Source of the DNA: Legionella spiritensis
Lineage (GTDB): Bacteria > Pseudomonadota > Gammaproteobacteria > Legionellales > Legionellaceae
Assembly: GCF_900186965.1 (NCBI RefSeq)
Contig: NZ_LT906457.1
Location: 1-64,000 of the forward strand
DNA length: 64,000 nucleotides
Reading direction: 5' to 3'
Made by a program: the position numbers and the translations under genes. Shown piece by piece: positions 3,915-38,088 of this stretch (the first letter of the stretch is position 1; every line of letters starts with the position of its first letter). A model generated the notes under the pieces. The model did no database searches. It had not been told where the DNA came from and saw nothing but the letters and a program-made list of their open reading frames with translations.

Positions 3915-6398
<2,484 letters not shown>

Positions 6399-32600: not shown

Positions 32601-32659
32601 GGCTTGCGCCGCCGGCTGTAAATGGCTAAAATTGGACAAGTTTGCCTAATTTTTTTATT

Positions 32660-33745
32660 ATGACCATTGCATTAAAGACCAATGAATATCGGGATATTGC
32701 CGGTATTGTCACCGGAAAACTTAATGAATTGTTTCCAGGGCACCAGAGGCTCATTAACGCCTTCATGGGGCCTGCCATTATTGCCCAACCCCTGAGAATC
32801 TCCACTCCTAAAACGGCGATCAATTTCAATGAGTCGGAAAAAAGCGCCATTAAAACCCTTAGGGCACAAATCAACGAGGAACAGGACAAAGAGAAGCGCT
32901 ACAAGAAACAGCAGCGACTGGAAAGCATGATTCTTCTGGGACAGATATTGTTCGCACAATCAGCCTGCCGGTATTTTCTGGAACAATGTCAACGGAATAA
33001 TGCAGGTAACCTGCTTATTCAGCAATATTTTCAAAGATTACAGGACATTATCGAAAGAGAAGGTGTGGCATTTCAATCGTCCCGTCTTGACGCACTGACC
33101 CGCCGCAAGGAATTCAGCGATATCTGGGCAAAAACAGAGCGAGAAATTCGTGCCGCTGATCTCCCTGTAGACGCTCGTAATCAGTGGTTGAGGAATCTGT
33201 CGCATATGCGTGGATTTTATTATCAGGTCAATGATTTGAATTTCAAATACGCTCAAACACCATCCAGGTCTTTTTCAAAAGTGGTTAATGAACTGGAAGA
33301 TTTCGGATCCAAAGTCGCTCTGTGCGCTTCCATTATTGCCATTGGAGCCACGGCCTTGTCTTTTATCCCGCCTTTAGCCCCAGTCATGGGGGTGATTGCG
33401 TTTACCGCCGCTCATGTGAGTCTGATGATTGGATTGCCCCTGGCTTTGAAAAGAATGGGTACCATACTGTACAACATGATACGATTCGGCGCCGCCCCCA
33501 CCGTTGGTGAAGTGATAGGTACGGCGTTGTTAGGAACCAGCATGCTGCTGGCCGGTTTAAGCGGCATTGCCGCTCAGGCCGTGTCCATGGGTTTTATCGG
33601 TCGCTGGGCAGAGATCACCACGAGCGGGTTGAAGGCGGCCAACAACCTGACCAAAGCGTCAATGGGGATTGCCGGACAAGTGGCTCAATCCTCTCAACAC
33701 GGGCTAATGGATGGGATCCCTTCTCATCCCGTGCCTGTACATTGA
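32660..33745 (+). CDS. Hypothetical protein with C-terminal membrane segments
   Basis: No family is recognised. The 361-residue product has a long hydrophilic, helical N-terminal part with charged stretches (NEEQDKEKRYKKQQR) and clusters of aromatic residues, then three or four hydrophobic segments between about 225 and 335 (ALCASIIAIGATALSF, VMGVIAFTAAHVSLMIG, IGTALLGTSMLLAGLSG). ATG 32660 is chosen over TTG 32642; neither has a clear ribosome site. It follows the preceding candidate effector by 60 bp on the same strand. A hydrophilic body with late hairpin-like membrane segments is common among Legionella effectors targeting host membranes; this is suggestion only. Confidence 0.55.
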   Translation: MTIALKTNEYRDIAGIVTGKLNELFPGHQRLINAFMGPAIIAQPLRISTPKTAINFNESEKSAIKTLRAQINEEQDKEKRYKKQQRLESMILLGQILFAQSACRYFLEQCQRNNAGNLLIQQYFQRLQDIIEREGVAFQSSRLDALTRRKEFSDIWAKTEREIRAADLPVDARNQWLRNLSHMRGFYYQVNDLNFKYAQTPSRSFSKVVNELEDFGSKVALCASIIAIGATALSFIPPLAPVMGVIAFTAAHVSLMIGLPLALKRMGTILYNMIRFGAAPTVGEVIGTALLGTSMLLAGLSGIAAQAVSMGFIGRWAEITTSGLKAANNLTKASMGIAGQVAQSSQHGLMDGIPSHPVPVH

Positions 33746-35409: not shown

Positions 35410-36150
35410 TCAGAGGCGTTTGCCATGAATCCTTTCCATGACCTCTTCGGACGCATTTGAAACCTGCGCGGACACGCCGGCTTTCAATGTTTCAAGAGCG
35501 TCCCTGACGCCGTCTTCTCCGTACAATTTGTATGACCAGCTTGTCGTTTGCACACCACTGGCGAATTGGAGCAATTGTACTTCCTTGTCTCTCGTGAAAT
35601 GTTCGCGAGAGTATAGCTTACCCGGTTTTAAGTCGTCCTCATTCCAGGTATGGATGGTTTCGGCTTTTACCCATGGCCCTAAGGTGGTTATCAGTTCCAA
35701 TACTTCCTTGACGCCCAGTTTATACCAGAGATTGCCGGTGTCCTTGCCCATCGCCCACTGATAAACGACTGTTAAATCTTCCAGAGCTTCGCGATATTCT
35801 TTGTCGTATTGTTTGCGAACCGTAGCATTATAGGTAGCCCAGCAACCAGCCGCGAGAGTGACTGTGACCAGGGGAAGAACCCAGCATCCAACGTAGCCGG
35901 CCGCACTTACCGCGCCGGACACGATGATATGATAATCCACGTTTTGTAATGCCTTCTGCGCATCTGAGAAACGCTTTATCTGATTTTGCAGGAACTCCAG
36001 ATGACTGGCGGATTGATAGTCAAACCCCCCTTCCGGAAGGGTGACTCTCCCCGGTTTGGGTGCTGAGATATTGCTTCCAACACAATAGCTCCAAAATGTT
36101 ACCGCACTATTCAGGACGCTACTTGCAACTCCTCCACTATCTCCAGGCAT
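35410..36150 (-). CDS. Hypothetical protein with a central membrane hairpin
   Basis: No family is recognised. The 246-residue product has a polar N terminus, a hydrophobic stretch of about 40 residues (from YHIIVSGAVSAAGYVG to TLAAGCWATYN, about 83-120) that could form a membrane hairpin, and a charged helical C-terminal half ending in HGKRL. The frame is open from 36306, but ATG 36150 is chosen because GGAGGG lies seven bases upstream; ATG 36165 is an alternative. It is convergent with argO, with only two bases between stops. Confidence 0.55.
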   Translation of the reverse strand: MPGDSGGVASSVLNSAVTFWSYCVGSNISAPKPGRVTLPEGGFDYQSASHLEFLQNQIKRFSDAQKALQNVDYHIIVSGAVSAAGYVGCWVLPLVTVTLAAGCWATYNATVRKQYDKEYREALEDLTVVYQWAMGKDTGNLWYKLGVKEVLELITTLGPWVKAETIHTWNEDDLKPGKLYSREHFTRDKEVQLLQFASGVQTTSWSYKLYGEDGVRDALETLKAGVSAQVSNASEEVMERIHGKRL

Positions 36151-36434
36151 AACACTTCCCTCCATTGAACACGTCAAAATTTCGATTGTAATCACATTAT
36201 TAAGCGGATTGAAGAAAATAATAACAAAAAAAAGTTTTTTTTCGTATGGGGGGAAATAGAAAGGGCCAATCGGTGTGTCGCCAATTGACCCAGTGGAATG
36301 ACACATAGCAAGTCCAACCTCGCGGGGTTGACTATCTCATAACAATAGGTTAATTGTCAACCGTTTTACCGGATTGCATTTGTTGCTATCGGCCGGATGC
36401 GTTACACTGTTTCTTTTGGCATACTTCATTCCTT

Positions 36435-36863: not shown

Positions 36864-37000
36864 GCGGTGTGTTTTTTTTATAAAATTAAAACAATAACTT
36901 AATTGCTAATTTTTTTTAAAAAACAGAAAAAAAAGAAATTTTCTGCTACCCTTAAATTGGATTCATGTCCTTAACCTTAATTTTTGCAAGGAAGAAAGCT

Positions 37001-37249
37001 ATGAAAAATTCAACTATTGCTGTAGCTACGCTCTTGACGTCATTGTCCGCAGTTGCTGTTGTGCCTGCTGCCTACGCAACCAGCACAACCAATACCCAGC
37101 TAACTGCCTGTGCAGGCTGTCAGGGTTGTAAAGGCTGTAAGGGTTGCAAGGGCTGTGCAGGTTGTAAAGGCTGTGCAGGTTGCAGCGGATGCTCCGGTTG
37201 TAGCGGATGCTCTGGTTGCAGCGGATGTTCCGGTTGCAGCGGCAACTAA
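37001..37249 (+). CDS. Secreted Cys-X-Gly repeat peptide
   Basis: The 82-residue product has a clear signal peptide (1-26, ending AYA) and a ten-residue linker. From Cys37 to the end come fifteen uninterrupted Cys-X-Gly triplets (X = A,Q,K,K,K,A,K,A, then seven S), closed by Asn. Fifteen cysteines in a 56-residue mature peptide point to metal binding, multiple thioethers or disulfides, or enzymatic modification. Synonymous codon variation among triplets argues against a recent slippage artefact. The ribosome site AAGGAAG is strong. A perfect 10-bp stem-loop follows, then a His/Cys-rich gene that could be its modifying or handling partner. Similar peptides occur with copper-related RiPP-like systems, but no such enzyme family is recognised here. 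Confidence 0.85.
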   Translation: MKNSTIAVATLLTSLSAVAVVPAAYATSTTNTQLTACAGCQGCKGCKGCKGCAGCKGCAGCSGCSGCSGCSGCSGCSGCSGN

Positions 37250-37257
37250 ACCTCTTG

Positions 37258-37286
37258 TGAAAGCGGCAAATTATTCGCCGCTTTCA
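37258..37286 (+). terminator. Stem-loop between peptide and partner genes
   Basis: TGAAAGCGGC (37258-37267) pairs perfectly with GCCGCTTTCA (37277-37286) around a 9-base loop, starting nine bases after the peptide stop. It lacks a downstream T run, so it is more likely a transcript-stabilising or partial-termination element than a full terminator. It would allow high peptide and low partner expression from one transcript. Confidence 0.6.
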
Positions 37287-37329
37287 TTAACTCGTTCCCT
37301 GTCTCATAGCAATAATTATATATTTACCC

Positions 37330-38088
37330 ATGACAACGAATTTTAAATTACCGGTATTAAGCCCAACAAAAAAAACGAAGATGCTGCGCTACGCCAGGCG
37401 AATTTTACAGGCTCAGCACACTATCATGGTTGAGCGGCAAAAAAATATTCTTCACTACACCTTGCAGGATCAGGAACAGCATGTTTCCATGGCCCATTAC
37501 CCGAAAGGTGATCGTATTGATCATCAGACCGGCGCACAGTATTTCTACCACTGTCATCGCGAGAATTTTGACAGTATGGAGCACGGCCATTTCCATTGTT
37601 TTTTAAGAGACAAGGGGATCCCCGAGCGCATTAAACCGACGCCGTTGCCCGACTGGGATAAAAACATGAATAATCCCATGACTCATATTGTGGCCATTGC
37701 CCTGAATTGTTACGGGCAGCCGATTCGTCTGTTTACCGTGAACCGTTGGGTCTCTCAGGAGGTCTGGTACGATGCCCGGCATGTTCCGGGATTTGTGAGT
37801 CGCTATAAAATGACCTTGAAAGATCCCTATTGGCAGATTCTGGACCAATGGGTGGAAGGCATGCTGCATTTGTTTGCTCCCCAGATCGCCTGGTTGCATC
37901 AGCAACGCGATAACATCCTGGAACAATATAAAAAGACGCATCCCGGGCAAAACGCCTATGAAAGCCATGATTTGGAGGAGGTGTCTCAAATCGCCATTGA
38001 CTTACAGGCGCAGATCCAGTGGCTGCTTGAAAGTGACATGGAGCCGGTTGCGCGTCATGACAAGCCGCAATCCGCCCATTTTCCGTAA
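37330..38088 (+). CDS. His/Cys-rich uncharacterised protein beside the peptide gene
   Basis: The 252-residue soluble product resembles what I recall of the uncharacterised DUF6969 family; the name is tentative. Its core has clustered possible metal ligands: YFYHCHRENF (73-80) and EHGHFHCFLR (84-93), then MTHIVAIALN with His119 and RLFTVNRWVS (133-142). No known enzyme motif is seen. The C-terminal 90 residues are helical. Upstream is the Cys-X-Gly peptide gene (80-bp gap containing a stem-loop), and the shared strand suggests co-expression. A role in modifying, loading or sensing the peptide is inference. The ATG lacks a strong ribosome site, consistent with lower expression. Confidence 0.75.
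   Translation: MTTNFKLPVLSPTKKTKMLRYARRILQAQHTIMVERQKNILHYTLQDQEQHVSMAHYPKGDRIDHQTGAQYFYHCHRENFDSMEHGHFHCFLRDKGIPERIKPTPLPDWDKNMNNPMTHIVAIALNCYGQPIRLFTVNRWVSQEVWYDARHVPGFVSRYKMTLKDPYWQILDQWVEGMLHLFAPQIAWLHQQRDNILEQYKKTHPGQNAYESHDLEEVSQIAIDLQAQIQWLLESDMEPVARHDKPQSAHFP

Follow-up and report, generated by a model that had tools for sequence, protein, structure and literature searches.

Among the systems described so far, those closest to the locus reported here are the bufferins and captophorins, ribosomally synthesized and post-translationally modified peptides (RiPPs) of the MNIO-DUF2063 type (Buf1, or DUF2282; Buf2; Buf_EGKCG), in which a small Sec-exported precursor with cysteine (Cys) motifs adjoins a cytosolic partner (PMC12452194, PMC12668002). 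According to PMC12452194, most MNIO-modified precursors carry Sec signals, and a few FGE-sulfatase/cytochrome c fusions and sigma/anti-sigma genes are present at some Buf1 loci; the terms CXG and NPC do not occur in the main text of that paper. The DNA that we analysed, hereafter the window, comprises the first 64,000 nucleotides (nt) of contig NZ_LT906457.1 from Legionella spiritensis, whose genome (G000) consists of one contig of 3.35 Mb. On its forward strand, where all features of the pair described below lie, a gene for a small exported peptide of Cys-X-Gly (CxG) triplets is followed by a gene for a protein of the family DUF6969.

The pair shares with bufferin loci the small Sec-exported Cys-motif precursor next to a cytosolic partner and, across its relatives, the long precursors and fusions, the presence in some neighbourhoods of genes for an FGE-sulfatase, a cytochrome c or a sigma factor, and the occurrence in Pseudomonadota. 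The Sec signal together with Cys motifs that characterizes bufferin-like precursors was recognized by eye in the window peptide and by a script heuristic in its relatives. Unlike in bufferin loci, the partner is DUF6969, which has no profile similarity to MNIO or DUF2063, and the Cys contexts differ from EGKCG. The BufA2 model (NF050166) did not match the window peptide and matched only 4 of 32 aligned peptides, all weakly (best 24.9 bits against 60; ten peptides were scanned singly). Our preferred reading is that the locus is a bufferin-like system independent of MNIO, with DUF6969 acting in the cytosol to modify the Cys residues, or to prepare them in some other way, ahead of Sec export. It is a tentative reading, held with a confidence below one half because our results do not separate a covalent modifier from a handler of the peptide. 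Since MNIO is often absent and DUF6969 is dissimilar to MNIO and DUF2063, the system may work like the bufferin system yet not be a member of it.

Heterocycloanthracin and sonorensin (TIGR03601) are YcaO-modified peptides with a Cys at every third residue, and the window-type peptides resemble them in being dense in regularly spaced Cys. They differ in that a Sec-type signal takes the place of a RiPP leader. TIGR03601 matched 2 of the 32 aligned peptides at E <= 0.001 (best 4.6e-4), the window peptide not being one of these, and three of ten singly scanned peptides scored 16.6-18.4 bits, where the cut-off is 35. A YcaO enzyme acting in trans was discarded, as YcaO had no match in G000 (5 of 14 control genomes gave one).

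A peptide gene paired with DUF6969 in Legionellaceae

The precursor gene (37001..37249) encodes 82 residues and is preceded by a sequence resembling a ribosome-binding site, AAGGAAG (36988..36994). Its translation agrees with an earlier note on this DNA, which had described a signal peptide followed by fifteen uninterrupted CxG triplets in a 56-residue mature peptide. The Sec-type signal peptide, assigned by eye, reads MKNSTIAVATLLTSLSAVAVVPAAYA (37001..37078); presumed cleavage after A26, between AYA and T (also by eye), leaves the 56 residues that hold the unbroken triplets (37109..37243). M1, A7, A9, L12 and A26 are unchanged across the 32 aligned peptides, which include that of the window. 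Within the repeat DNA, 12 different 9-nt units occur among the 15, and the codons are mixed (Cys, nine TGT and six TGC; Gly, seven GGT, five GGC and three GGA), so that it is the protein sequence that has been kept and not a recent DNA duplication. The exported peptide is likely to bind metal or to be modified.

The exact triplet is not what defines these peptides. Legionellaceae orthologues with the common leader carry CAGSECKGA, CAAAS, CAPS, CAPSCAPCG, CKCTCGNQ or a few scattered Cys, and DUF6969 elsewhere adjoins NPCAAK and similar repeats; CxG is thus one version of a wider Cys-repeat theme. These variants also bear on whether the peptide could be a collagen-like or disulfide-linked structural protein in which the Gly-Cys-X triplet is the point. 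Collagen was the sole Pfam match of the window peptide at E <= 0.1, with 26.5 bits, but this lies below the cut-off of 27.2, the repeat is free of proline, and orthologues and distant partners drop the triplet while keeping Cys. We rejected this scarcely credible explanation on the sub-cut-off score and the failure of relatives to keep the triplet.

The gene pair recurs across the family. Within the same genus the peptide was found in 8 of 11 genomes, that of the window included, and DUF6969 in those same eight; the closest named records at the locus, from Legionella erythra, L. rubrilucens and L. quinlivanii, are 66-68 percent identical over the partner. Among 143 Legionellaceae genomes, 71 contain both genes, 1 DUF6969 only, 13 the peptide only and 58 neither, with the peptide counted as present at E <= 1e-7. 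This threshold excluded G050 (3.5e-6) and weaker matches, mostly of 22-28 bits, several of them adjoining MNIO genes, which we took for EGKCG-type precursors. The peptide is therefore present in 71 of 72 genomes with DUF6969 and in 13 of 71 without it, and in the sole exception among the former (G021) the DUF6969 match starts 230 bases into a contig. The association is strong. We collected 40 loci, of which L049, at 33 percent identity, stands outside the 39 counted as Legionellaceae-type; in 34 of these 39 the peptide gene lies directly upstream of DUF6969 on the same strand, and one further locus is cut by a contig end. Because the order of peptide, hairpin and partner is the same in relatives, the arrangement is not due to chance. 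The peptide and DUF6969 form a real two-gene unit, as the earlier note had proposed.

The hairpin between the two genes (37257..37287) has an 11-pair stem without a bulge, made of ten Watson-Crick pairs and one G-U pair at the base, and a 9-nt loop. Its folding energy is -17.4 kcal/mol (z -4.4), and 0 of 200 shuffles were equally stable. In 35 of 47 relatives a strong hairpin follows the peptide gene at this position; the stem sequences differ among them (z-scores from single-base shuffles of 45-nt stretches). The window hairpin has no T run, no terminator-like site was found in the window, and an intrinsic terminator was rejected on that ground. The stem-loop had been expected to favour peptide over partner; its recurrence supports unequal expression of the two genes but does not show it.

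The 13 Legionellaceae genomes that hold a leader-bearing peptide without DUF6969 allow a comparison of Cys content. Four of these orphan peptides contain no Cys (G059, G051, G028, G031) and two contain three; others include two His/Lys/Cys-rich peptides with five Cys, one with 8 Cys in 168 residues and one with seven. The Cys fraction is higher in peptides accompanied by DUF6969 (median 0.237, n=49 unique peptides drawn from the 71 genomes) than in those without it (n=13, four of them Cys-less), with a p value of 1.5e-5 that is not corrected for the tree. The contrast is also visible within genera. In genus g13, the peptides of G027, G029 and G030, which have DUF6969, contain 10, 8 and 6 Cys and those of G028 and G031, which lack it, none; in g18 the corresponding values are 9, 11 and 13 (G048, G049, G052) against none (G051), and in g15 they are 9 and 12 (G039, G041) against 5 to 8 in four genomes without DUF6969. 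These Cys-poor orthologues look like a natural experiment that links the two genes. In the orphans at L206, L207, L208 and L209 the signal peptide is kept and the Cys-free body is rich in Ser, Thr and Asp. In L208 (G028) a possible remnant of DUF6969 follows the peptide match by about 150 bases on the same strand; DUF6969 positions 177-205 are matched there with 9.6 bits (E 0.0025).

DUF6969 loci outside Legionellaceae and their relation to MNIO

DUF6969 was found in 20 of 398 genomes sampled from the phylum, that of the window included, and in 89 of 385 genomes sampled from the class of genome G158. We presume this class to be Alphaproteobacteria, given that the G158 DUF6969 shares 66 percent identity with Azospirillum proteins and that a neighbour protein from another genome of the class matched only Azospirillum records. 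In the phylum sample (20 loci, with the window genome excluded and G508 counted twice) an exported Cys-repeat protein lies near DUF6969 in 17 loci, candidates being chosen by eye; the repeats include NPCAAK, CGAK, CCAAEG, CAACAAG, NPCGPAKKK and others. No candidate was seen in L080 and L090, and L087 has no upstream DNA. Under a strict rule 12 of the 20 loci pass, of which 10 are believable and 2 look spurious, while L081, L091 and L095-L099 fail it or pass solely through a spurious hit; a looser rule, which yields chance hits, gave 33 hits in the 20 loci and 4 in 20 controls. These controls, 20 stretches from 12 of the same genomes, gave one hit under the strict rule besides the 4 under the looser one, and none of them looks real.

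The class sample comprised one locus from each of 60 of the 89 genomes, and a Cys-repeat protein was found near DUF6969 in 33 of them. This count derives from 32 strict passes, from which L166 and L168 were removed on inspection by eye and to which L125, L144 and L152 (contig-end cut) were added under the loose rule, run here on the strict failures and six other loci with 1 chance hit in 20 controls. Among named records, a Cys-repeat peptide lies directly upstream of DUF6969 in Burkholderia glumae and in the soil species Ciceribacter thiooxidans, where the peptide spans positions 4592-4945 of L263 and the DUF6969 match 5001-5573. Several partners are long proteins with a cytochrome P460 or a SoxA/TsdA-like cytochrome domain at their end. 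When the profile of the Legionella peptides was compared with that of the NPC-type peptides, they matched in the signal region only (probability 64 percent), and homology of the two groups is not shown. The 112 neighbours of DUF6969 called by script include 13 FGE-sulfatase, 12 cytochrome c and 2 NrsF proteins, and in one locus the order is MNIO, DUF2063, DoxX, CGAK peptide and DUF6969.

The absence of a DUF692 enzyme near the pair, which the earlier note had pointed out, was confirmed among the nine proteins scanned around it (32.6-40.4 kb), which include no MNIO (DUF692, PF05114), DUF2063 or DoxX. The genome does contain two MNIO genes, at 1.86 and 2.58 Mb, and the CxG peptide could in principle be their substrate in trans, with DUF6969 a mere accessory; one of the two, at L215, has no EGKCG-type precursor adjacent to it. 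The distribution of MNIO makes this very improbable. MNIO is without trace in 22 of the 72 Legionellaceae genomes with DUF6969, and all 22 keep the peptide. It is likewise absent from 9 of 19 other DUF6969 genomes, seven of which have a Cys-repeat protein near DUF6969; of the remaining two, G305 has no such protein and G223 has no DNA upstream of the gene. Some of the genomes counted here as lacking MNIO are incomplete.

The DUF6969 protein and its proposed action

The partner gene (37330..38088) encodes 252 residues, and its product matches PF22308 (DUF6969) over residues 22-223 with an E value of 3.6e-74 (249.2 bits, cut-off 27); no NCBIfam model matched it. The entry names no function, so that the description of the partner as lacking a known enzyme motif stands as regards function, but the protein belongs to a known Pfam family and is not a lone unknown. 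The dense His/Cys clusters that had been noted are present, as YFYHCH and EHGHFHCF. P58, H74, H76, E84, G86, H87, H89, H119, F135 and N138 occur without exception in 59 aligned DUF6969 sequences, and a matching list was obtained from a partly overlapping set of 30 sequences led by a short divergent member; no Cys is invariant among the 59. The His/Glu core HCHRENFDSMEHGHFH (37549..37596), which contains H74, H76, E84, H87 and H89, and H119 (37684..37686) suggest a probable His/Glu metal site.

AlphaFold2 gave confident models of the window protein and of a 208-residue relative, with predicted local distance difference test scores of 94.2 and 90.8, respectively, and strands and helices follow in the same general order in the two. 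In the model, H74/H76 and H87/H89 are located on two strands of one predicted hairpin; by counting residues around the turn, H74 would pair with H89 and H76 with H87. A PDB fold search with both models returned no close match, which is not proof of a new fold, and a profile search against PDB chains gave six weak hits, the best of them with E 0.17 across 45 positions; all were to alpha-hemoglobin stabilizing protein, and we disregarded them. That DUF6969 is a diverged MNIO or DUF2063 was rejected, with hhalign probabilities of 0.1 and 0.2 percent, respectively, against MNIO and DUF2063 profiles of only three sequences. No signal peptide was seen in the window DUF6969, and the protein should thus be cytosolic. 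The literature searched, which covered few subscription papers, contained no mention of DUF6969 and no link of it to exported Cys-repeat proteins; it did include papers on MNIO and one on a copper-binding RiPP cluster of Microbulbifer.

In the mechanism that we propose, the first gene would supply a secreted Cys-repeat precursor in quantity and the recurrent hairpin would probably lower the amount of the second gene product. Cytosolic DUF6969, with its probable His/Glu metal site, would act on the Cys residues of the precursor before it folds. A metal taken up ahead of Sec export is expected to be lost during translocation, and for this reason the action would most likely be a covalent modification. 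The product would then buffer or sequester a soft metal such as copper in the periplasm, possibly as part of a stress response.

The nearest rival to a maturase is a non-covalent handler of reduced Cys, that is, a thiol-keeping chaperone, reductase or metallochaperone that would keep the precursor reduced and export-ready, the mature peptide being an unmodified, metallothionein-like chelator in the periplasm. The very varied Cys contexts (CxG, NPCAAK, CGAK, CAAEG) can be explained by a general handling of thiols no less well than by a single site-specific chemistry, and DUF6969 has invariant His with no invariant Cys. Substrate-specific handlers are, however, unusual for Sec substrates, and the bufferin-cluster neighbours together with the MNIO cluster that contains DUF6969 point to maturation; we regard the handler as unlikely, though it is the alternative that we take most seriously. 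A more far-reaching form of the maturase reading, to which we give somewhat less credence than to the general one, is that DUF6969 represents a new class of metal-dependent peptide-modifying enzyme, unrelated to MNIO and with a fold unseen in the PDB, which, throughout Pseudomonadota, would introduce an undescribed Cys modification on Cys-repeat peptides exported by Sec and on cytochrome-fused proteins, as a second, independently evolved bufferin-type system. If our preferred reading holds, bacteria would have a second route besides MNIO to exported Cys-rich metal buffers, through another protein family and probably another chemistry; DUF6969, to which no function is assigned, would gain a testable role, and many candidate precursors would come to light that have so far gone unrecognised. 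The system would be categorically new if DUF6969 were shown to perform a new modification.

Several observations weigh against a DUF6969 that acts on the Cys of its neighbour. The four-His geometry comes from predicted strands and not from coordinates. In Legionellaceae, 4 of the 39 loci are second DUF6969 copies without a peptide (their genomes also hold a copy with one), and the distant L049 has no Cys peptide under the scan. Genomes G072, G079 and G082 keep a nine-Cys peptide without DUF6969; genus g14 shows no contrast (3 Cys in 84 residues in G034, which has DUF6969, and 3 in 44 in G032, which lacks it); and 6 of the 49 peptides accompanied by DUF6969 have only 3-5 Cys. The leader is also conserved in Cys-less orphans, so its conservation does not prove that DUF6969 recognizes it. 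Several partners in the phylum sample, those at L095-L099, contain no more than 4-5 Cys and do not pass the strict rule. Among named records, no Cys-repeat peptide was found under the scan at two Azospirillum and two Sinorhizobium meliloti loci. The earlier note had held that widespread partner homologues without a Cys-rich neighbour would speak against a two-gene system. This is in part what was seen: in 27 of the 60 class-sample loci no peptide lies within some 4 kb of DUF6969, but 14 of these 27 genomes have an NPC-type repeat elsewhere; the other 13 have no NPC-type peptide anywhere. Such repeats occur in 0 of 20 genomes without DUF6969, a set not matched for size or kinship and including several small genomes.

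DUF6969 without a nearby peptide is also what would be expected of a cytosolic sensor or regulator that responds to metal or thiol state and controls its neighbour, not touching the peptide. The His cluster could sense metal, and sigma-factor genes are present at some loci. A Pfam scan of the window DUF6969 gave no DNA-binding or signalling domain, however, and the peptide may sit elsewhere in the genome or be fused to cytochrome domains, and we consider a regulator quite improbable.

Neighbouring genes and further loci

The window presumably starts with dnaA, which we named by eye. Two of its open reading frames upstream of the pair, 32642-33745 (367 residues) and 35410-36306 (298 residues), have no Pfam match. 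Elsewhere in the genome, L215 (G000 C1:2575974-2582756) contains an MNIO/DUF2063-like pair without an EGKCG-type precursor beside it, and L216 (G000 C1:1852867-1859649) contains MNIO in an apparent bufferin cluster with an 84-residue, Cys-containing exported peptide and with proteins that we took by eye to be DUF2063-like and DoxX-like. In G004, G009 and G010, from the same genus, a weak peptide match adjoins an MNIO gene.

At L019, L021 and L040 the peptide-less second DUF6969 directly follows a gene that looks coproporphyrinogen oxidase-like. L107 and L108 have a small exported peptide with GCMG motifs downstream of DUF6969, which in L108 is a second peptide. In L082, L083 and L085 an FGE-sulfatase-type protein lies between the NPCAAK peptide and DUF6969 (a Pfam match for L082; 3 of 69 neighbours in one scan), and the CNPC of NPCAAK-type repeats resembles the C-x-P part of the formylglycine motif. 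Finally, on a Burkholderia glumae plasmid (L267), DUF6969 and a CAPKCAPK peptide are found near CcdA/thioredoxin and near a sigma factor accompanied by a zf-HC2 protein; the same locus carries genes annotated as arsenosugar biosynthesis glycosyltransferases.
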